DNA from: Desulfurellaceae bacterium bin18
Lineage (GTDB): Bacteria; Desulfobacterota; Binatia; Bin18
DNA length: 64,000 nt
Direction: 5' to 3'
Assembly: GCA_002238415.1 (NCBI GenBank)
Contig: MPMI01000016.1
Location: forward strand, 1 to 64,000
In this document: positions 49,156 to 59,358 of the stretch, one piece after another
How the letters are laid out: each line of letters opens with the position of its first letter
Numbering within the stretch: the first letter of the stretch is position 1
Notes under the pieces: model-generated
Told to the model about the DNA's origin: nothing
Database searches by the model: none
The model's input: only the letters and a program-made list of their open reading frames with translations
Made by a program: the position numbers and the translations under genes

Positions 49156-49902
49156 ATGTCGGGTGTCATGATCGTGACAGGCGGAAGTCGCGGCATTGGA
49201 GCCGCCATTTCACGCCGAGCGGCGCGGGCCGGGTTTGACGTGTGCGTCAACTATGCGCGCGCCAAAAACCGGGCCGAAGAGGCGGTCCACGACGTGATAC
49301 AGGCCGGGCAACGGGCTATTGCCGTGCAAGCCGATGTAGGAACAGAAGAAGGCGTTATTGAGCTGTTTCGCCGGACCGATGCCGAACTCGGCCCGGTCAC
49401 TGCCCTGGTGAATAATGCCGCGATCGACTATGAGACCGCAGTCGTCGACGCCGAGTTGGAACGCGTCCGGGGCGTTTTTAATCTCAATATCTTTGGCGTG
49501 TTCGTGAGCGCCCGCGAGGCCATCAAACGCATGTCCACCAAACGCGGTGGCACCGGCGGCGTGATCGTCAACGTCGGCTCCATTTCCTCACGGTACGGCG
49601 GGCTACCGGGCGATGTGGTCTACGCCTCAAGCAAAGGCGCGCTTGATTCCTTTACCCTGGGTCTGTCCAGGGAAGTCGGGCCCGAGGGGATTCGGGTCTG
49701 TTGCGTGCGGCCTGGGATTACCCGGACGGAAATTTTTGAAGCGAGTATCGGTATTGAACGCGCCGAAGCCATTGCCAAGGCGCAGACGGTCTTGGGGCGT
49801 ATCTGCGAACCCGAAGAGGTGGCCAATCTGGTGGTGTGGATCTGCACGGATGAGGCCTCGTACGTCACCACGACGATCTACGATATTTCGGGTGGACGCT
49901 GA
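49156..49902 (+). CDS. Short-chain dehydrogenase/reductase
   Basis: A 248-aa NAD(P)-dependent oxidoreductase. TGGSRGIGAAISRRAARAG is the Rossmann motif; the catalytic Ser is in VGSISSRYGG and Tyr-x3-Lys is in VVYASSKGAL. It ends with YVTTTIYDISGGR, the classical tail. AGAAGGAG precedes the ATG. It lies between hyuA and the copper amine oxidase gene and is probably co-transcribed with both. The likely role is to oxidise or reduce an intermediate in the same pathway. Confidence 0.88.
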   Translation: MSGVMIVTGGSRGIGAAISRRAARAGFDVCVNYARAKNRAEEAVHDVIQAGQRAIAVQADVGTEEGVIELFRRTDAELGPVTALVNNAAIDYETAVVDAELERVRGVFNLNIFGVFVSAREAIKRMSTKRGGTGGVIVNVGSISSRYGGLPGDVVYASSKGALDSFTLGLSREVGPEGIRVCCVRPGITRTEIFEASIGIERAEAIAKAQTVLGRICEPEEVANLVVWICTDEASYVTTTIYDISGGR

Positions 49903-49933
49903 ACAGGCCACATTAATAAAAGGAGAAACCAGC

Positions 49934-51883
49934 ATGACCAGCGCCATACAGGACACACAGACAGACCACGCGCAGACCCTTCCAACGCATCCCCTGGAGC
50001 CGCTGAGCCGGGACGAGATTGAGCGCGGCGTGGCCATCCTCACCGGCTCGGGCGAACTGAGCGGCCAGCTCGCCTTCTCCAGTGTCAGTCTGGTAGAGCC
50101 GCCCAAAGATGAGGTCAAGACCTTTACCCCAGGCGCGCCGTTTACTCGGGCGCTGCGCTTTCTGGGGGTGGACGAATCTGCCAACGGGAGGCAGGCGGGC
50201 AGTTTTGACGCACGGGTCAATATCACGACGGGAGAGCTGCTTGGGGTGCAGCGCCTCAGCGGCGGACAGGCCCCATTTGGGGGGCGAGACTTGGCGCAAT
50301 CGATCAAGCTCACCAAAGCCGACCCCGCCTGGCAGGCCGCGGTGAGACGGCGCGGCGTCGAGGATATGGGCCGGGTGCAGATCGATATGTGGCCGGGCAG
50401 CGGCCCCCTGCCCGACGGCGTGGATGCAACCCATCGCCTGGCCCGGACAATTGCTTTTGTGCGTGAAGACAAGACCGACAACGGCTATGCCCGCCCGCTC
50501 CAAGGGCTGATTGCCCATGTGGACCTGACCGCAGGCCGGGTGGTCCATCTGGAAGACCACGGCGCGACCGTCCTGCCACCGGAGAGCGGACGCTACGAGG
50601 CTAGCCATCAGCCTTCACTGCGGACCGATTTGAAACCGATTGCCATTACCCAGCCCGAGGGGCCGAGTTTCCGCGTCGACGGGCACGCGGTGGAATGGCA
50701 GAAGTGGTCGTTCCGGGTCGGCATGCACCCCCAGCACGGCCTGGTTTTGCATACCTTGAGTTATGACGATGCCGGGGAGCGGCGGTCGATCCTGTATCGG
50801 GCGTCGCTGGCGGACATGGTGGTTCCCTATGGCGACCGCGACCCCATGCACACCTGGAAACACGTGCTGGATGCCAGCGAGGCGAGTGTGGGCAATCTGG
50901 CCAATTCGCTCAGCCTGGGCTGCGACTGTCTGGGCGAAATCCATTATTTTGATATGGACACCCTGCTGGCCGACGGGTCCGTCTATACGATTGAGAACGC
51001 CATATGCATGCATGAAGAAGATTACGGCGTGCTGTGGAAGCATCGCGACTTGCTGTCCGCGACCACGGAAGTCCGGCGCTCGCGGCGTTTAGTAGTCAGC
51101 TCGTTCTTTACGGTCGGGAATTATGAGTATGGCTTCTTCTGGTATTTATACCTGGACGGCACAATTCAGATGGAGGTCAAGCTGACCGGCATCGTCGGCG
51201 TCAGCGCGGTAGAAACCGGGGCCGAGCAGCCCGAATTCGCCCCGCTCATTGCGCCCAACCTGGCCTCCCCGATTCACCAGCATCTGTTCTGTTTCCGGCT
51301 CGACTTTGATGTGGACGGTGAGAATAACTCGGTCTACGAAGTCGATGTCGAACCCGTGCCGCACGGGCCGGACAATCCGCACGGGACCCAGTTCCGCGCC
51401 AAGACGACCCTCCTGGAGTCCGAAGATGTTGCTCGGCGAGATATTGCCCCGCAGGCCGGTCGGAGCTGGAAGATCGTCAACCCGCAGCGGACAAACCGGC
51501 TGGGGGTCCCGGTCGGCTATAAGCTGCTTGCCGGCGCAACGCCTACCCTGTTTGCCCAGGCGGACTCCTATGTGGGGCAACGGGCCGGGTTTGGCCAGCA
51601 TAATCTGTGGGTCACCGCGTTTGCGCCGGACGAACTCAGCGCGGCCGGCGACATCACGCTCCAGAGCCCCGGCGGTGAGGGTCTGCTGCGCTATTCACGC
51701 GACCGCAATATCGAGGACACCGACATCGTTGTCTGGCATACCTTTGGCCTTACGCATATTCCGCGGCCCGAGGACTGGCCGGTGATGCCGGTCGAGTATG
51801 CCGGCTTCAGCCTGATGCCGGTCGGCTTTTTTGAACGCAACCCCGCCCTGGACGTACCGCCCAGTCCGCATGCGTGCAAATAG
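49934..51883 (+). CDS. Copper-containing primary amine oxidase
   Basis: A 649-aa oxidase that converts primary amines to aldehydes with ammonia and hydrogen peroxide. The topaquinone motif NYEY lies at residues 396-399; Tyr 397 would be the modified residue. The copper ligands are HQH in IHQHLFCFRLD and a His in GQHNLWVTAF. The catalytic Asp is in KHVLDASEASVGN. There is no signal peptide, so it is cytoplasmic or exported by another route. AAAAGGAG precedes ATG 49934; the open frame before it is the shadow of the SDR gene. Together with the exported Mo enzyme downstream it forms an amine-to-acid route. Confidence 0.9.
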   Translation: MTSAIQDTQTDHAQTLPTHPLEPLSRDEIERGVAILTGSGELSGQLAFSSVSLVEPPKDEVKTFTPGAPFTRALRFLGVDESANGRQAGSFDARVNITTGELLGVQRLSGGQAPFGGRDLAQSIKLTKADPAWQAAVRRRGVEDMGRVQIDMWPGSGPLPDGVDATHRLARTIAFVREDKTDNGYARPLQGLIAHVDLTAGRVVHLEDHGATVLPPESGRYEASHQPSLRTDLKPIAITQPEGPSFRVDGHAVEWQKWSFRVGMHPQHGLVLHTLSYDDAGERRSILYRASLADMVVPYGDRDPMHTWKHVLDASEASVGNLANSLSLGCDCLGEIHYFDMDTLLADGSVYTIENAICMHEEDYGVLWKHRDLLSATTEVRRSRRLVVSSFFTVGNYEYGFFWYLYLDGTIQMEVKLTGIVGVSAVETGAEQPEFAPLIAPNLASPIHQHLFCFRLDFDVDGENNSVYEVDVEPVPHGPDNPHGTQFRAKTTLLESEDVARRDIAPQAGRSWKIVNPQRTNRLGVPVGYKLLAGATPTLFAQADSYVGQRAGFGQHNLWVTAFAPDELSAAGDITLQSPGGEGLLRYSRDRNIEDTDIVVWHTFGLTHIPRPEDWPVMPVEYAGFSLMPVGFFERNPALDVPPSPHACK

Positions 51884-51910: not shown

Positions 51911-52384
51911 ATGATTTCACTGACCGTGAACGGAACGGAACACAGCGTTGATGTCGGCTCGGACATGCGGCTGCTGTGGGTGTTACGCGATATCCTGGGG
52001 CTGACCGGGACGAAGTTCGGCTGTGGCATGTCCTTGTGTGGAGCCTGCACCGTCCATCTGGATGGCGAACCGGTGCGCTCGTGCGTTATGCCGGTCTCCA
52101 TTGCCGCGGGCAAGAAAATTACGACCATAGAAGGGCTCTCTACAGATGGCGGCCATCCCTTACAGCAGGCGTGGATTGCCCATCAAGTGCCGCAGTGCGG
52201 ATATTGCCAGACCGGCATGATTATGTCGGCCGCGGCGCTGCTGAAGAAAAATCCCCAGCCAACCGACACCGACATCAACGAATCCGTAACGAATATTTGC
52301 CGGTGCGGGACGTATGTGCGTGTTCGGGCCGCCATTCATACTGCCGCTCAAAAATCCGGCTCGAACGACGGGATGAAGGGATAG
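51911..52384 (+). CDS. [2Fe-2S] subunit of an isoquinoline-1-oxidoreductase-like molybdenum enzyme
   Basis: A 157-aa iron-sulfur subunit. The first cluster is bound by [11 protein letters not shown] plus RSCVMP, the second by QCGYCQTGM and NICRCGTY. It differs from the CoxS-type gene at 5484 in lacking any FAD partner, which is the hallmark of the IorAB branch: electrons leave to a cytochrome. AAGGAG precedes ATG 51911. It is 10 bases before the large subunit gene. Confidence 0.86.
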
Positions 52385-52394
52385 GGGCGCACCG

Positions 52395-54578
52395 ATGAAA
52401 CAAATATCGAACATGTCCCGTCGTTCGTTCTTGTTACGCTCAGCTGCGGTTGGGGGCGGACTGTTACTGGAAGTGACGCTTCCGAAGTCTTCTGTGGCAG
52501 AGGCCGAGCAGGTGAGTGCTCAGGCTGAAACCAGTCCTGAGGTAACCGCCTGGGTCCTGATCCGGCCGGATGATACCATCATCATTCGAGTCGCGCGGGT
52601 AGAAATGGGCCAGGGTAATTTTACCGGCCTTCCCATGCTGGTCGCCGAAGAGTTGGCCTGTGACTGGAGCAAGGTGCAGGCCGAGTATGCGTCAACCAGC
52701 GAACATCTCAGACGCAACCGGATTTTTCGCACCATGCTGACCGGCGGCAGCCGGTCGATCCGTGACAGCCAGGAGTATTTACGCACGGCAGGGGCCGCGG
52801 CCCGCCTGATGCTGACCAGCGCGGCCGCGCGGCGCTGGGACGTACCGGTTGCGGAATGTGTGGCCGCGAACAGCATCATCACCCATACCCCAACCCAACG
52901 GCAGGTCAGCTTTGGAGCGGTGGCAGCAGAGGCGGCCACGCTCGACATCCCCGAAAATCCGCCGCTCAAAGACCCCGCGGACTGGACCATTTTGGGTCAA
53001 CCGGCCCAGCGGTTTGACATCCCGGATAAGGTCACGGGCAAGACCGCGTTTGCGATTGATACCCGGCTGCCCGGCATGGTCTATGCCGCGATTGCCCAGT
53101 GCCCGGTGTTCGGCGGCAGTCTGAAAAGCGTGGACGCTGAAAAAATTGCCGACATGCGCGGGGTGGTCAAGGTTGTTCCCCTGGAAGACGCGGTCGTCGT
53201 CGTTGCCAAAGAAAGCTGGTGGAACGCGCAGCAGGCACTCCGCGCGCTGCCGATTGAGTGGGATTTTGGGGAGCACGCCCAAGTGAGCAGCGACAGCATC
53301 CTGGAATTTCTGCGCGAGGGCATACAACTCGAAAAGGCGCCGGTCTCCCGTCAGGAGGGCGATATCGACAGCGCGTTTGCCAGTGCGGCCACAACAATTG
53401 AAGCCGACTATTATGCCCCCTATCTTGAACACGCCACCATGGAGCCGCAGAACTGTACGGCGCTGTATACGGAACAGCGGGTTGACGTCTGGGCGCCGGC
53501 CCAGAACAGCGAGGCCACCGCGGCCGTGACCGCTGAGACCGCGGACGTGCCGGTGAGTCGGGTCGAGGTCCATAAAGTCCATCTCGGGGGGGGCTTTGGG
53601 CGGCGCGGGCTGTATATTGAGTTTGTGCGCCAAGCCGTCAGGATTGCCAAGACTATGCCCGGCACCCCGGTGCAATTAATCTGGTCCAGAGAAGAGGATA
53701 TTCAGCACGGCCGCTATCGGCCGGTGGCCCTGGTCCGCATGAGAGCTGCGCTCAACGCCTCCGGGGAACCAACCGCCTGGTCTGTGCGGCAGGCCGAGCA
53801 GTCGATTTTCAGTGCAGTCCGCCCTCATCTGATTCGGGACGGGGTTGATATCGTCGGTGTTCGGACTTTTGCCGACGCGCCGTACGCCTTCCCGAACATG
53901 CATATGGAATACGCCATGCGCAACACCCACGTGCCGCCAGGACCGTGGCGGGCAGTAGCGCATACTCATAATCCGTTCTTTCGGGAGAGTTTCATTGATG
54001 AGTTAGCCCATGCGGCCGGGCAGGACCCGTACCAATTTCGCCGCACCCTCCTCCAGACCCCCCAGGCGTCGAAGGACCTGGCCATTCTGGACGCGGTCGC
54101 CGAGGCCGCCGAGTGGGACAGCCCGCTGCCGGAAGGCGTCCACCGCGGGATTGCCGTGCAGGATTCTTACGGAAGTTATACCGCAGCGGTAATTGAAGCG
54201 TCAGTTAATGGTGCAGGTGAGTTGACTATCCACCGCGTGGTTACTGGTATTGACTGTGGGTATGTGGCCAATCCCGACTCGGTCCGGGCTCAGCTCGAAG
54301 GCAGCGTCGTCTACGGCCTGACAGCCGCGCTGTACGGAGAGATCACCATTAAGGCGGGCCGGGTTGAACAGTCGAATTTTCATGACTACCAGATGATGCG
54401 GTTGGCCGAGATGCCCACGGTTGAGGTGATCCTCAAGCCGACTGGTGGTTTCTGGGGCGGCGCGGGCGAGCCCGGTATGGCCCCGCTTGCGCCGGCGCTG
54501 TGTAATGCCATCTTTGCGGCAACCGGTAAGCGTATTCGTTCGCTGCCGTTAAAGAACCATGATTTACGCCCGGCCTAA
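52395..54578 (+). CDS. Molybdopterin-binding subunit of an isoquinoline-1-oxidoreductase-like enzyme, Tat-exported
   Basis: A 727-aa large subunit. The N-terminus carries a twin-arginine signal (MSRRSFLLRSAAVGGG, residues 7-30), so the holoenzyme is periplasmic. GGGFGRRGLYIEFVRQAVR and GFWGGAGEPGMAPLAPALCN include the Mo-pterin contacts and the catalytic glutamate. This branch oxidises N-heterocycles or aldehydes and passes electrons to cytochrome c. Position after a copper amine oxidase suggests that it oxidises the aldehyde product. It overlaps the soxY start by about 20 bases. The cytochrome c of the sox genes could be its acceptor. Confidence 0.86.
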   Translation: MKQISNMSRRSFLLRSAAVGGGLLLEVTLPKSSVAEAEQVSAQAETSPEVTAWVLIRPDDTIIIRVARVEMGQGNFTGLPMLVAEELACDWSKVQAEYASTSEHLRRNRIFRTMLTGGSRSIRDSQEYLRTAGAAARLMLTSAAARRWDVPVAECVAANSIITHTPTQRQVSFGAVAAEAATLDIPENPPLKDPADWTILGQPAQRFDIPDKVTGKTAFAIDTRLPGMVYAAIAQCPVFGGSLKSVDAEKIADMRGVVKVVPLEDAVVVVAKESWWNAQQALRALPIEWDFGEHAQVSSDSILEFLREGIQLEKAPVSRQEGDIDSAFASAATTIEADYYAPYLEHATMEPQNCTALYTEQRVDVWAPAQNSEATAAVTAETADVPVSRVEVHKVHLGGGFGRRGLYIEFVRQAVRIAKTMPGTPVQLIWSREEDIQHGRYRPVALVRMRAALNASGEPTAWSVRQAEQSIFSAVRPHLIRDGVDIVGVRTFADAPYAFPNMHMEYAMRNTHVPPGPWRAVAHTHNPFFRESFIDELAHAAGQDPYQFRRTLLQTPQASKDLAILDAVAEAAEWDSPLPEGVHRGIAVQDSYGSYTAAVIEASVNGAGELTIHRVVTGIDCGYVANPDSVRAQLEGSVVYGLTAALYGEITIKAGRVEQSNFHDYQMMRLAEMPTVEVILKPTGGFWGGAGEPGMAPLAPALCNAIFAATGKRIRSLPLKNHDLRPA

Positions 54579-55041
54579 TCGCCTGTCACGGCGGCGCGCG
54601 CTTGTCGGTCTGCTTGGCTGCCTGGGCTGCCTGCTCGTGCCGCTCAGAAAGGCGCGTTCGGCAGACGCGCTTCCCGAGAAGCTCGCACCGCTCATTCGCC
54701 AGGCAACCGGAGGGGTCATGCCCCAGGTCGGCCGCGTCACGCTTACTCTGCCGGCCCTGGCCGAAAGCGGCCATTCCGTCCGGCTGCGGGTCCGAGTCGA
54801 GAGTCCGATGACGCCACAGGCCCATGTAAGACAGATTCATGTTTTTTCGGAAAAGAACCCCAGACCGGTTATTGCCCGCTTCTCGCTGGGACCGCGAGCC
54901 GGACGGGCCGAGGTGCACACCCGGATTCGACTGGCCGGTACCCAGCAGGTTGTTGCGGTTGCGGTCATGAACGACGGCACGGCCTGGATGGCAAGCGCGG
55001 AAGTCGTTGTCACGGCTGCGGCCTGTGTTGAGGGAAGCTGA
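54559..55041 (+). CDS. soxY: SoxY-like sulfur carrier protein with a divergent C-terminus
   Basis: A 160-aa exported protein with a twin-arginine signal (LSRRRALVGLLGC) and the SoxY core with VRLRVRVESPMTPQAHVRQI then HVFSEKNPRPVIARFSLGP. In canonical SoxY the sulfur-carrying cysteine sits in a C-terminal GGCGG. Here the end is VVVTAAACVEGS, so the cysteine is retained but the glycine arm is missing. It binds SoxZ, encoded 15 bases downstream. The gene overlaps the end of the Mo enzyme gene and lacks a clear ribosome binding site, so it is probably translationally coupled. Confidence 0.82.
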   Translation: MIYARPNRLSRRRALVGLLGCLGCLLVPLRKARSADALPEKLAPLIRQATGGVMPQVGRVTLTLPALAESGHSVRLRVRVESPMTPQAHVRQIHVFSEKNPRPVIARFSLGPRAGRAEVHTRIRLAGTQQVVAVAVMNDGTAWMASAEVVVTAAACVEGS

Positions 55042-55056
55042 CCGGACCCATGCGAT

Positions 55057-55380
55057 ATGGCCAAGGCGAGAATCAAAGTCCCCGAAGTTGTCAAACGCGG
55101 AGCGGTTTTCGAGGTGCGTTTGCTCATCCGTCATCCCATGGAAACGGGCTTCCGGTATAACAACGTGGGCCAGAAGATTCCCAAAAACATCGTGCATACC
55201 GTCCGATGTGTGTATAACGGGGCAGAGGTTTTCCACGCAGAGTTATTCCCTGGTATTGCCGCCAATCCGTATTTCTCGTTTTTTACCACAGCGGAAGCGT
55301 CGGGCGAGCTGGAGTGTGTGTGGACAGATGACACTGGGGTCACGATGTCCGAGCGCGTCGCGCTCACGGTCAGCGAATGA
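55057..55380 (+). CDS. soxZ: SoxZ sulfur-compound chelating protein
   Basis: A 107-aa immunoglobulin-like protein that forms a heterodimer with SoxY. It starts MAKARIKVPEVVKRGAVFEV, includes LIRHPMETGFR and ends ERVALTVSE. These match SoxZ throughout. It has no signal and is exported bound to SoxY. The length is normal. Its stop overlaps the cytochrome c start by four bases (ATGA), so it is coupled to that gene. No other soxZ is visible in the window. Confidence 0.88.
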   Translation: MAKARIKVPEVVKRGAVFEVRLLIRHPMETGFRYNNVGQKIPKNIVHTVRCVYNGAEVFHAELFPGIAANPYFSFFTTAEASGELECVWTDDTGVTMSERVALTVSE

Positions 55381-55682
55381 AATGTTTTGTTGTCCTGCTG
55401 GCAGGCCTGCTGGCCGTCCCGGCCCTCGCGGGCACCGCCTCTGTCTCTGAGCGCGGCGCGGCCTGGGCCCGGGCATGTACGGCCTGTCATGGCCCTGACG
55501 GACAGAGCCAAGGAGCCATTCCGGCGCTTGACCGGCTGTCACCCGAGGACTTCAGGGTGGCCATGCAGGCATTTCGGACCGAAGAGCGTCAGGGAACCGT
55601 GATGAATTATATTGCCAAGGGGCTGAGTGAGGCGGATGTCGAGGCCGTGGTGGCGTATTTTGCAATAATGCAGGCACGTTGA
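55377..55682 (+). CDS. Monoheme c-type cytochrome (FccA/SoxE-like)
   Basis: A 101-aa periplasmic cytochrome with a Sec signal (VVLLAGLLAVPALAG) and one heme site ACTACHG; a Met in GTVMNYIAKG is a candidate sixth ligand. It directly precedes the FccB-like flavoprotein, an arrangement seen for flavocytochrome c sulfide dehydrogenase and SoxEF. It could accept electrons from FccB or from the periplasmic Mo enzyme. Its start overlaps the soxZ stop by four bases. Length is normal for a small class I cytochrome. Confidence 0.84.
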   Translation: MKCFVVLLAGLLAVPALAGTASVSERGAAWARACTACHGPDGQSQGAIPALDRLSPEDFRVAMQAFRTEERQGTVMNYIAKGLSEADVEAVVAYFAIMQAR

Positions 55683-55779: not shown

Positions 55780-57057
55780 ATGCCCCCATATCTCACCCGC
55801 CGTCAATTCTTCAGCCTGGCCGGAAGCCTGCCTTTTGTCCGCCCGCTGACCGGCAGAGCGCGGGCGAATACCCAGGCCAGGGCCGTCGTCGTTGGCGGTG
55901 GTTTTGGCGGGGCGACCTGCGCAAAGTATTTACGCCTGGCCGACCCGAGCCTTGAGGTCACGCTGGTGACCCCCCAGCCTCAGTTTATCACCTGTCCATT
56001 CAGCAATGCAGCTTTGGTTGGTCTTCGCTCGCTCGCCTCGTTGACCTATACCTACCAACGGCTCCGGGAAGGCTATGGCGTACAAATTGCCCATGCCCAA
56101 GCACAGGAGATTGATCCGACCACGCGGCGCCTCACCCTCTCTGACGACACTACTCTCACCTATGACAAACTTGTCTTATCCCCCGGTGTTGAACTGCGCT
56201 GGGACGCAATAGAAGGTTACGACGCCGAAGCCAGTACGGTGTTCCCACACGCCTGGCAGGCGGGTTCGCAGACGCTGCTGCTACGCCGTCAACTGGAAGC
56301 CGTGCAGGATGGCGGGCTGGTGGTGGTGAGCGCGCCGGAGACGCCCTACCGCTGTCCGCCGGGGCCGTACGAACGGGCCAGTTTGATCGCCCACTATCTC
56401 AGAACTCACAAGCCAAGATCGAAAGTCTTGCTGCTTGATGCCAAGGACAGTTTTACCAAGGACGGACTATTTCTAGCCGCGTGGGAGAGGCTGTATCCCG
56501 GCCTGCTCGAATGGGTACCGGGTGCCCAGGGCGGGCGGGTCACCCAGGTCGATACCCGCACCGGCATCGTCCACACGGAGTTTGACGAGTACAAACCAGC
56601 GGTGGCCAATATCATTGCCCCGCAGCGCGCGGCGGCGATTGCGCGGGCGGGCGGCCTCGACGCCGGCACGGGCTGGTGCCCCGTATACGGTGGCACATTC
56701 GAATCCCGCATACACCCCAACATTCATATTATTGGCGACGCGGCTATCGCCAGCCCCATGCCCAAGTCCGCCTTTAGCGCCAATACTCAAGCCAAGGTCT
56801 GCGCCGCGGCCATTGTGGCTCTGCTCCGGGGCGAGCCGGTTGCCCCGCCGGCGTTGATGAATACCTGCTACAGCCTTGTTGCGCCTGATTACGGTATCTC
56901 TATTAGCGCTGTGTATGCCGTTGAAAACGATACGATTCAGGTTGTCCCAGGATCGAGCGGCACAAGCCCGCTTGACGCGCCGGGGACAACGCGCACGCTC
57001 GAAGCGGCCTACGCCCGCTCGTGGTACGCCAATATTACCGCCGATACGTTTGGGTAA
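55780..57057 (+). CDS. fccB: Flavocytochrome c sulfide dehydrogenase flavoprotein subunit (FccB/SoxF)
   Basis: A 425-aa flavoprotein with a twin-arginine signal (LTRRQFFSLAG), so it is periplasmic. The FAD motif is VVVGGGFGGATCAKYLR; one redox cysteine is in PYRCPPGPYERASLIAHYL and the other near MNTCYSLV, the FccB pattern. It oxidises sulfide or polysulfide and reduces the adjacent monoheme cytochrome. It sits between that cytochrome and the fused soxXA gene. The first residues after the signal match FccB, and the length is normal. The start ATG is at 55780. Confidence 0.88.
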   Translation: MPPYLTRRQFFSLAGSLPFVRPLTGRARANTQARAVVVGGGFGGATCAKYLRLADPSLEVTLVTPQPQFITCPFSNAALVGLRSLASLTYTYQRLREGYGVQIAHAQAQEIDPTTRRLTLSDDTTLTYDKLVLSPGVELRWDAIEGYDAEASTVFPHAWQAGSQTLLLRRQLEAVQDGGLVVVSAPETPYRCPPGPYERASLIAHYLRTHKPRSKVLLLDAKDSFTKDGLFLAAWERLYPGLLEWVPGAQGGRVTQVDTRTGIVHTEFDEYKPAVANIIAPQRAAAIARAGGLDAGTGWCPVYGGTFESRIHPNIHIIGDAAIASPMPKSAFSANTQAKVCAAAIVALLRGEPVAPPALMNTCYSLVAPDYGISISAVYAVENDTIQVVPGSSGTSPLDAPGTTRTLEAAYARSWYANITADTFG

Positions 57058-57070
57058 AGGCGACGCTACG

Positions 57071-58363
57071 ATGCACGGAATCCATTGGAAAGCTTTTGTC
57101 ATTCAGGTGTGGATCGGACTTCTGGTGCTGAGCGATCTCTGCGCCCAGGGGAATCAGCAACTCGACGGTTTGCAGACCCGGCATGAAGGGATTCCCACCC
57201 CGTTGACCGACCAGCCCGGTGATGCGGAGCGGGGACGGCATATTGTGCTCGACCGGGAGCGCGGCGATTGTGTGGTATGTCATGCCCTGCCGCAAAGAGT
57301 AAACCTGTCTTCCAATAAGCAGGCAGATGTTGACAGGTTTACTCTTTTGCCCGAACGCCGCTTCCACGGCACGGTGGGACTGCCCTTGGACAACGTTGGG
57401 AATCGCCATACCGCCGCGGAGTTGCGCCTGCGACTGCTGGACCCCAAAGCGCTGAACCCCCGCTCCATCATGCCGGCGTATCATACCGTGGAAGGTCTGC
57501 ATTCCGTACTCGAAGCCTACCGGGGCAAGCCGATCCTCACCGCGCAGGAAATTGAAGATGTTGTGGCCTATCTCCTGACGCTTCGTCAGGACGCTCCACA
57601 GGCTGCTGAGGCTCTCCAAACTCCGGGCAGTTCGCAGCACGAGACTTCCCCGTACAGCGTCGAAGGCCGTCGCTCCGGGTATACTTATCTGTCGGAGGAA
57701 CACCGACAGTTACAGGACGACGCGTTTGGCAATCCGGGGATGTTATGGATCGAACGTGGGCACGATTTATGGGACCAGACCCAGGGCGACAGCCAACAGG
57801 CGTGTGCCGGTTGTCATGGAGACGCGGCAACAAGTATGCGCGGGGTGCGTACACGCTATCCGCAATTCGATCCACGCACAAAAAAACTCATCAATCTGGA
57901 GCAACGGATTAACCGCTGTCGCACCGAGCAACTCCAGGCCGAAGCCTACCCGTATGAATCCGAAGCCCTGTTGGCGCTCAGCGCCTTTGTGAGTTTTCAG
58001 TCCCGCGGGCTGCCGCTGAACGTGGACATCACGGGGCCGGCCACGCCGTTTTTCGAGGCGGGTAAGGCGTCCTTCATGCGCCGCCGCGGCCAACTCAACA
58101 TGACGTGCAGCCATTGCCACGACGAGTACGCCGGGCAACGCCTGCGGGGTGAAGTCGTCAGCCAGGGACAGACCAACGGCTTCCCAGTCTATCGGCTGAG
58201 CTGGCAAACACTGGGATCGACACACCGCATGTTTGTCTGGTGCAACACCGCGATTCGTGCCCAACCCCTGGCCCACGGGGCGGACGACTACGTGAATCTG
58301 GAATTGTATATGGCCTGGCGGGGTCGTGGCTTACCGGTAGAGACACCGGGCGTGCGCCGCTGA
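57071..58363 (+). CDS. soxXA: Fused SoxX-SoxA triheme cytochrome c
   Basis: A 430-aa periplasmic protein that joins two subunits normally encoded separately. Residues 1-25 are a signal peptide. Residues 50-175 are SoxX: heme site C67-C70-H71, MPAYH with the Met 134 ligand. Residues 220-430 are SoxA: heme sites C245-C248-H249 and C346-C349-H350, with the persulfide cysteine C391 in HRMFVWCNTAIRAQP. SoxXA links thiosulfate or persulfide oxidatively to SoxYZ. An in-frame 54-bp palindrome disturbs residues about 75-93 just after the first heme. Frame from 56876 is open, but ATG 57071 starts at the signal peptide. soxB and soxCD are absent from the window. Confidence 0.86.
   Translation: MHGIHWKAFVIQVWIGLLVLSDLCAQGNQQLDGLQTRHEGIPTPLTDQPGDAERGRHIVLDRERGDCVVCHALPQRVNLSSNKQADVDRFTLLPERRFHGTVGLPLDNVGNRHTAAELRLRLLDPKALNPRSIMPAYHTVEGLHSVLEAYRGKPILTAQEIEDVVAYLLTLRQDAPQAAEALQTPGSSQHETSPYSVEGRRSGYTYLSEEHRQLQDDAFGNPGMLWIERGHDLWDQTQGDSQQACAGCHGDAATSMRGVRTRYPQFDPRTKKLINLEQRINRCRTEQLQAEAYPYESEALLALSAFVSFQSRGLPLNVDITGPATPFFEAGKASFMRRRGQLNMTCSHCHDEYAGQRLRGEVVSQGQTNGFPVYRLSWQTLGSTHRMFVWCNTAIRAQPLAHGADDYVNLELYMAWRGRGLPVETPGVRR
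57294..57347. repeat. In-frame palindromic insertion inside soxXA
   Basis: AAAGAGTAAACCTGTC at 57294-57309 and GACAGGTTTACTCTTT at 57332-57347 are perfect 16-bp inverted arms with a 22-base loop. The whole is 54 bases, so it adds 18 codons without a frameshift. It lies between the heme motif CHALP and ERRFHGTVG, which join directly in typical SoxX proteins. Confidence 0.85.
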
Positions 58364-58399: not shown

Positions 58400-58741
58400 C
58401 TACGCAACGCTTTCTTCCATTGAGTCAGCAGGACGCCGGATGAGCGAGTATTGCCGAATTCTCTTCAGCTCCTTGGCCTCTGAGCGCTGGGCATAATACA
58501 GGTCCCAGCGGAGTTGAAGGTTAAGCCAGAAAGCGGCAGAAGTACCAAAGAACTTCGCTAAGCGCAGAGCCGTTCCCGGGCTTACGCCGCGTCGCCCTCG
58601 CACCAACTCGTTAACCCGCTGATATGGCACATGAAGCTTTGCTGCAAGCTCACGCTGGGTTAAGCCCATAGGGCGCAGGAATTCCTCCAGGAGCACTTCC
58701 CCCGGATGGGTTGGAGAGCGATGGGTTGGAATGCGAACCAT
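58400..58741 (-). CDS. higA: HigA-family antitoxin
   Basis: A 113-aa helix-turn-helix antitoxin. HPGEVLLEEFLRPMGLTQRE then LAAKLHVPYQRVNELVRGRR form the DNA-binding domain, followed by the family tail WLNLQLRWDLYYAQ. It inhibits the HigB ribonuclease and represses the promoter of the pair. AAAGGGAGG precedes the ATG. The toxin gene lies upstream, 20 bases before it. Length and order (toxin first) are typical of higBA. It abuts the 3' end of soxXA, which converges on it. Confidence 0.88.
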   Translation of the reverse strand: MVRIPTHRSPTHPGEVLLEEFLRPMGLTQRELAAKLHVPYQRVNELVRGRRGVSPGTALRLAKFFGTSAAFWLNLQLRWDLYYAQRSEAKELKRIRQYSLIRRPADSMEESVA

Positions 58742-58761
58742 GTTTCCTCCCTTTGATAGCC

Positions 58762-59055
58762 TTAATGGTAGTCAGTGATCTCGACCTGTACCGGTCCTGT
58801 CTTTGTCCAAGTAAAACAAATCCGGTATTGCGCATTTATACGTATGCTATGCTGTCCCCTCCGGTCTCCCAAGAGCGCCTCTAAATAGTTGCCTGGGGGA
58901 ACCTTCATTTCTTCGAGTGCTTCGGCTGAGTCAAGCTGATCAAGCTTACGACCTGCGACCTTCCAAAGTGAGAGAGGGCAACACTTCATTGCATTTTTCG
59001 TTCGTCTGCCGTTGAAGACATCTTCCGTTCCGGCGTTTTTGAACGACTGAATCAT
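58762..59055 (-). CDS. higB: HigB-family toxin (RelE-like mRNA interferase)
   Basis: A 97-aa RelE-fold ribonuclease that cleaves mRNA on the ribosome. It begins MIQSFKNAGTEDVFNGRRTK and ends GQHSIRINAQYRICFTW ... VEITDYH, the HigB family signatures with conserved Arg, Tyr and His. Antitoxin HigA is encoded 20 bases downstream. A 5-bp inverted repeat upstream (59066-59084) could be the HigA operator. The pair lies between soxXA and a degenerate copy of its 3' tail, which suggests insertion. Confidence 0.88.
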   Translation of the reverse strand: MIQSFKNAGTEDVFNGRRTKNAMKCCPLSLWKVAGRKLDQLDSAEALEEMKVPPGNYLEALLGDRRGQHSIRINAQYRICFTWTKTGPVQVEITDYH

Positions 59056-59084: not shown

Positions 59085-59120
59085 TACTTGGGAGACAGCT
59101 ACTATCCGAACTGTTAAATG

Positions 59121-59272
59121 CTAGGATCGACGCACCGTATGTTTGCCTGTTGTAATACCGCGCCCCGCGCCCAACCTCTGGCCCATGGGGCCGAGACTAC
59201 GTGAATCTGGAACTCTACCTGGCCTGACGCGGTCGTGGCTCGCCGGTAGAGACACCGGGGGTGCGACGGTGA
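59121..59272 (+). pseudogene. Degenerate copy of the soxA 3' end
   Basis: The sequence matches the last 150 bases of soxXA (58211-58363) with many substitutions, one deleted base and a TGG-to-TGA change. The SoxA persulfide segment reads HRMFACCNTA here, and the end is again near a GTGCG...TGA terminus. It lies 909-910 bases from the original, with higBA between the two copies. It is not expected to encode a functional protein. Confidence 0.85.
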
Positions 59273-59358
59273 GGGAAGAATATGGAAAAGTATTAAGCGC
59301 GCATAACTTGCTAAGGCGAAGCCATGACCCTTTATCCCTCGATATCTCTATAGCAGAG

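Follow-up and report, generated by a model that had tools for sequence, protein, structure and literature searches.

A single-chain SoxX-SoxA fusion, conserved in a family of uncultured Binatia, ends an operon with a Mo hydroxylase and an unusual SoxY

SoxXA is normally made of two separate proteins, but in a family of uncultured Binatia it is one chain, encoded in an operon without the usual partner enzymes. The fused frame lies on a window of 64,000 nucleotides from Desulfurellaceae bacterium bin18, which is the whole stretch of DNA analysed (Table 1). The fused SoxXA is a conserved and genuine variant of a known enzyme. On balance, we favour the reading that it is a single chain, exported once and carrying three c-type hemes, that serves a non-canonical Sox branch, and that a palindromic insertion within it is a mobile repeat which the protein accommodates as a disordered loop on its surface. 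The alternative operon, in which the role of the Mo hydroxylase is a putative one, is of greater interest than the fusion itself.

Table 1. Features of the bin18 window around the fused soxXA gene
Feature	Position	Strand	Remarks
Copper amine oxidase	49811..51883	+	start codon uncertain; directly upstream, 27 nt before the [2Fe-2S] subunit gene
[2Fe-2S] small subunit of Mo hydroxylase	51911..52384	+	
Mo hydroxylase large subunit, xanthine oxidase family	52395..54578	+	RRSFLL twin-arginine leader, read by eye
SoxY paralogue	54559..55041	+	C-terminal AACVEGS arm; TIGR04487 best match
SoxZ	55057..55380	+	TIGR04490 84.7 bits, cut-off 76
Small mono-heme cytochrome c, SoxE/FCSD heme-subunit-like	55377..55682	+	
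Flavocytochrome c sulfide dehydrogenase (FCSD) flavoprotein, FCSD/SoxF-like	55780..57057	+	PF21706 and PF09242 over cut-off; synteny
soxXA, single-chain SoxX-SoxA fusion	57071..58363	+	430 aa; ATG at 57071, stop at 58361-58363; N-terminal signal sequence; ORF, profiles, PDB matches, orthologue alignment
SoxX domain	57191..57586	+	residues about 41-172; heme motif C67VVCH71 at 57269-57283; axial Met134 at 57470-57472
In-frame 54-nt insertion	57293..57346	+	residues 75-92, QRVNLSSNKQADVDRFTL; copy of a dispersed palindromic repeat family
SoxX-SoxA linker	57587..57670	+	hydrophilic; 28 residues (19-37 in family); without signal-peptide-like hydrophobic stretch
SoxA domain	57671..58360	+	residues 201-430; hemes C245AGCH249 and C346SHCH350; C283; catalytic Cys391 at 58241-58243; Met387 at -4

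The sequence-only reading had described one frame of about 48 kDa holding a SoxX domain (C67-C70-H71, Met134) joined to a diheme SoxA domain (C245-C248-H249, C346-C349-H350) with Cys391, and profile searches, PDB matches and orthologues bear out each of these assignments. The N-terminal half by itself scored 63.4 bits against TIGR04485 (cut-off 61) while the whole chain stayed slightly below at 59.2 bits, the palindromic insert splitting the CxxCH motif from the remainder of the match. The SoxA half scored 221.7-223.7 bits against TIGR04484, well above the cut-off of 110. SoxA and SoxX of Paracoccus and Rhodovulum were among the PDB matches, with 2c1d_A (9e-54) and 1h31_A (1e-53) for the SoxA half and 1h31_B (6e-19) for the SoxX half. 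The three CxxCH motifs' cysteines and histidines, Met134 and Cys391 are invariant across 13 fused orthologues. The same is true of C283, absent from the earlier list, which aligns with the second conserved SoxA cysteine and is Cys in 13/13. The computed mass of the unprocessed chain is 48.3 kDa. AlphaFold2 gave a mean pLDDT of 84.9 and a pTM of 0.80 for the bin18 product, and 90.8 and 0.88 for an insert-free orthologue; the modelled SoxA domain superposed on 1h31_A with an rmsd of 0.9, and the modelled SoxX domain on 1h31_B with a TM of 0.70 by target length.

Like the SoxXA (SoxAX; 1h31, 2c1d) of Rhodovulum sulfidophilum and Paracoccus pantotrophus, the fused protein has one Met-ligated SoxX heme, two SoxA hemes and both conserved cysteines. 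Unlike these two-chain enzymes, it is one chain, carries an 18-residue insert after the SoxX CxxCH, has Met in place of Arg at position -4 from the catalytic Cys and lacks a basic residue at -2. Arg at -4, a conserved SoxA feature outside the formal TIGR04484 definition, was present in 71/71 proteins from SoxB loci (43/43), Mo-hydroxylase loci (26/26) and alphaproteobacterial fusions (2/2), and Met occupied this position in all 13 Binatia fusions and in Devosia. At -2, the customary basic residue is replaced by Ala, Val or Gln in the Binatia fusions and Devosia. Because the Arg-to-Met change is common to Devosia, it probably predates the fusion.

A frameshift or an assembly error joining two genes is excluded, because the fused frame is open in 13/13 Binatia family genomes with a full-length match, bin18 included and two of them single-contig; the relatives' proteins are 54-88% identical to that of bin18. 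Within the phylum sample (n=395 genomes), bin18 alone had a SoxA over cut-off. The fused Binatia proteins form one clade (support 100/99), with Devosia SoxA as its sister (95/87) and nearest unfused relative, and in Devosia soxX and soxA adjoin each other as separate genes. Given this arrangement, neighbouring soxX and soxA genes are the most likely origin of the fusion, and the SoxA signal peptide would have given way to a short Pro/Ser/Thr-rich linker. A second fusion type, found on a plasmid of Indioceanicola profundi and in the alphaproteobacterial genome G570, rules out that the fusion is exclusive to the Binatia lineage. These proteins also have SoxX followed by SoxA in one frame and exceed both NCBIfam cut-offs but, unlike the bin18 protein, they are encoded beside SoxB and SoxC in canonical clusters and have no Cys aligned to C283. 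The starred branches of the tree require at least two changes of fusion label, indicating that the fusion arose at least twice, with the alphaproteobacterial pair diverged on a separate branch. SoxX-SoxA fusions are thus rare and not unique to the bin18 lineage. Matches were found in 75 of 385 sampled Alphaproteobacteria genomes, G570 being the sole fusion among the matches listed; further fusions may occur in unsampled groups, Gammaproteobacteria among them. An Allomeiothermus plasmid match was ruled out as a fusion, its soxX and soxA being adjacent yet separate. The portions of the open-licence literature searched hold no description of a SoxXA fusion, which is no proof of novelty.

The linker bears on whether the protein stays one chain. 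The best 11-residue hydropathy of the linkers ranged from -1.3 to 0.5 in the 13 family fusions, against 2.6 for the bin18 SoxXA N-terminus and 2.9 for the N-terminus of the separate Devosia SoxA, and no second signal peptide was found in any of the 13 linkers. Cleavage of the linker after export, which would turn the mature enzyme into an ordinary SoxX-SoxA heterodimer, would fit a linker that is variable and predicted to be flexible. However, the lack of a second signal peptide across the 13 linkers argues against it, as do the unconserved sequence and length, which are not what is expected of a protease site, and we consider such processing very unlikely. Provided that the chain is uncleaved, a fixed 1:1 SoxX:SoxA stoichiometry is predicted to follow from the fusion. 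A natural single-chain SoxXA represents a direct test of whether dissociation of SoxX from SoxA matters in catalysis. Another natural fusion is TsdBA of Marichromatium purpuratum (5lo9). Its enzyme part, TsdA, is not SoxA and converts two thiosulfates to tetrathionate with no SoxYZ. TsdA, a thiosulfate dehydrogenase, is joined there to a di-heme electron acceptor (PMC6879331).

The operon runs in the order [2Fe-2S] subunit, Mo hydroxylase, SoxY, SoxZ, cytochrome c, FCSD flavoprotein and, last, SoxXA. This order is kept in Binatia family loci across several genera, the shortest loci spanning the operon end only, and the copper amine oxidase gene also adjoins the operon in congeners. The SoxY is the sole SoxY in the bin18 genome and ends in AACVEGS, not GGCGG. 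It scored 165 bits against TIGR04487 ('SoxY-related AACIE arm'; cut-off 172, relatives 145-164) and 105.7 bits against TIGR04488, below 125. An AACIE-arm SoxY is not described in those parts of the open-licence literature that the search covered, and the novelty of the operon is not thereby proven. A plasmid operon of Methylobacterium sp. NMS14P has the same eight parts, unfused there, with its SoxY annotated 'AACIE arm'. Loci of Bosea, Roseomonas and Comamonadaceae likewise encode an AC-type SoxY next to Mo hydroxylase, SoxX, SoxZ and SoxA, but FCSD and cytochrome c were seen at some of these loci only. Unlike in bin18, these unfused Mo-hydroxylase operons place soxY and soxZ between soxX and soxA, and their SoxA retains the Arg residues. 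In Devosia enhydra, a cultivable carrier of the operon type that has no SoxB over cut-off, a fused SoxYZ-like carrier protein (L007, 4741-5460, minus strand; TIGR04557 116 bits, cut-off 140) adjoins the soxX-soxA and Mo hydroxylase genes. Downstream of the bin18 operon, beyond an HTH/HigB-like toxin-antitoxin pair (58400-59055), positions 59108-59278 repeat the 3' end of soxXA in degenerate form (81% identity), and a similar relic (85%) is present in genome G398.

No SoxB match was found in the bin18 genome, a draft of 83 contigs that is 96.4% complete, and none over cut-off in its 12 Binatia relatives. SoxC over cut-off was also missing from bin18; the best match was a sulfite-oxidase-family protein elsewhere in the genome (218.9 bits against 420), which may still play a SoxC-like part. 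Among 80 SoxA loci, 30 carried this Mo hydroxylase, 43 SoxB, none both and 7 neither, counts that are non-independent because the loci were picked by similarity to the bin18 protein and include many close relatives, and that cover flanks of 6 kb, beyond which a partner gene could be missed. The SoxY tail was GGCGG at SoxB loci and AC-type at Mo-hydroxylase loci where the tail was read. The exclusion is weaker at the genome than at the locus level: of the 23 proteobacterial genomes that were searched, the majority having a Mo-type locus, 13 encode SoxB elsewhere, so SoxB could act in trans there. The canonical Sox setting implied by the suggestion that the fusion might change SoxYZ docking is not supported for bin18, which has no SoxB, a sole SoxY without the GGCGG arm and a SoxA with Met for Arg at -4. 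Because of these differences, altered SoxYZ docking, if any, is not attributable to the fusion alone.

From the absence of SoxB, the SoxY arm, the Mo-hydroxylase operon and the Arg-to-Met change, we infer that the fused SoxXA belongs to an alternative Sox branch and not to ordinary thiosulfate oxidation. The N-terminal signal sequence would export SoxXA once, with three c-type hemes attached, and the periplasmic oxidation of sulfide or a sulfane compound would fall to FCSD with the small cytochrome. SoxXA would then oxidatively couple a sulfur species onto the C-terminal Cys of SoxYZ. Within the one chain, the SoxA catalytic heme would hand electrons to the SoxX His/Met heme, from which cytochrome c would receive them. 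Finally, the exported Mo hydroxylase would take the place of SoxB and SoxCD and act on the SoxYZ-bound group, a putative role on a putative substrate. The best solved relative of the large subunit is 8gy3_C, an aldehyde dehydrogenase large subunit, and since the enzyme is closest to aldehyde dehydrogenases, its substrate may not be SoxYZ-bound sulfur. Tentatively, then, we propose a Sox branch needing neither SoxB nor SoxCD, in which a twin-arginine-exported Mo hydroxylase of the xanthine oxidase family processes the group loaded by SoxXA on an AC-arm SoxYZ, the loader in Binatia being a single triheme chain with an altered active site. That Mo hydroxylase and SoxB exclude each other at the locus level suggests, together with the operon itself, that an alternative Sox branch is widespread, occurring in Binatia and many Alpha- and Betaproteobacteria.

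Two other readings of the operon have to be weighed against this proposal, and we regard each as rather unlikely. If the operon were an ordinary truncated Sox system, SoxXA would carry out canonical thiosulfate conjugation, SoxB would be lost or missed, and the Mo hydroxylase and amine oxidase would be unrelated neighbours. That SoxZ and SoxA exceed the canonical cut-offs, and the SoxB genes found elsewhere in 13/23 related proteobacterial genomes, would agree with this. By contrast, none of the 13 Binatia genomes has a SoxB over cut-off, Mo hydroxylase and SoxB co-occur in none of the 80 loci, the operon keeps its Mo hydroxylase in different genera and phyla, and bin18 departs from canonical systems in its SoxY arm and in residues of the SoxA active site. 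Alternatively, the operon could serve an organosulfur compound or thio-aldehyde, with the amine oxidase producing an aldehyde, the Mo hydroxylase oxidizing it, and SoxXA/SoxYZ and FCSD taking the released sulfur. The position of the amine oxidase gene 27 nt upstream of the [2Fe-2S] gene, which recurs in congeners, and the similarity to 8gy3 favour this scheme, but an amine oxidase is missing from the 12 kb read of the Methylobacterium operon, indicating that the amine oxidase is not a core component.

Set against sister species, the insert behind the SoxX heme motif measures exactly 18 codons. Its arms (57294-57309 and 57332-57347; 16 nt each) are perfectly complementary and enclose a loop of 22 nt. 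The insert is present in soxXA of four of seven congeners, bin18 included, and missing from the other three and from other genera. A single gain within the genus was rejected: the DNA tree, built on nine sequences only, requires four changes, and its starred branches force at least two, so loss of the insert or allele exchange is likely. The bin18 genome holds 39 full palindrome copies (for example at L146, L151, L153, L189 and L197) against 0 for the reversed pattern; the arms are AGAGTAAACGTGTC, and the searched arm ends stand 46-51 bp apart. All seven congeners carry copies, as do both genomes of a second genus in the family; seven other genomes have none. In-frame copies lie in soxXA, HEAT, cytochrome c, APH-like and TonB-plug frames, the empty site having been compared for soxXA alone; they encode RVN(V/L)SSN...DTFTL-like peptides, and other copies use a second frame. 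In the AlphaFold2 model, residues 77-97, which cover most of the insert, have a pLDDT below 50.

The palindrome might instead be a functional RNA or a terminator, given that the arms are identical in 32/39 copies and covary between copies, and that two both-sided changes separate species within soxXA itself. Nevertheless, no Rfam match was found, the insert is missing at the soxXA site in three congeners, a mismatch on one side only is seen in one soxXA copy, and copies lie both within and between genes, leaving little probability for an RNA role compared with a tolerated mobile insertion. Rickettsia palindromic elements are described in a review as dispersed palindromes of ~150 bp in frame in unrelated protein genes (PMC10969869). 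The bin18 palindrome resembles them in being dispersed and in frame in unrelated protein genes, but it is ~54 bp long and its host belongs to Binatia, not Rickettsia. By analogy it appears to work like such an element without being classed as one, suggesting that protein-coding mobile palindromes are apparently not confined to Rickettsia. One bin18 copy lies close to the frame start of a Monooxygenase_B (PmoB/AmoB-type) gene (L196, 242-1603, minus strand).
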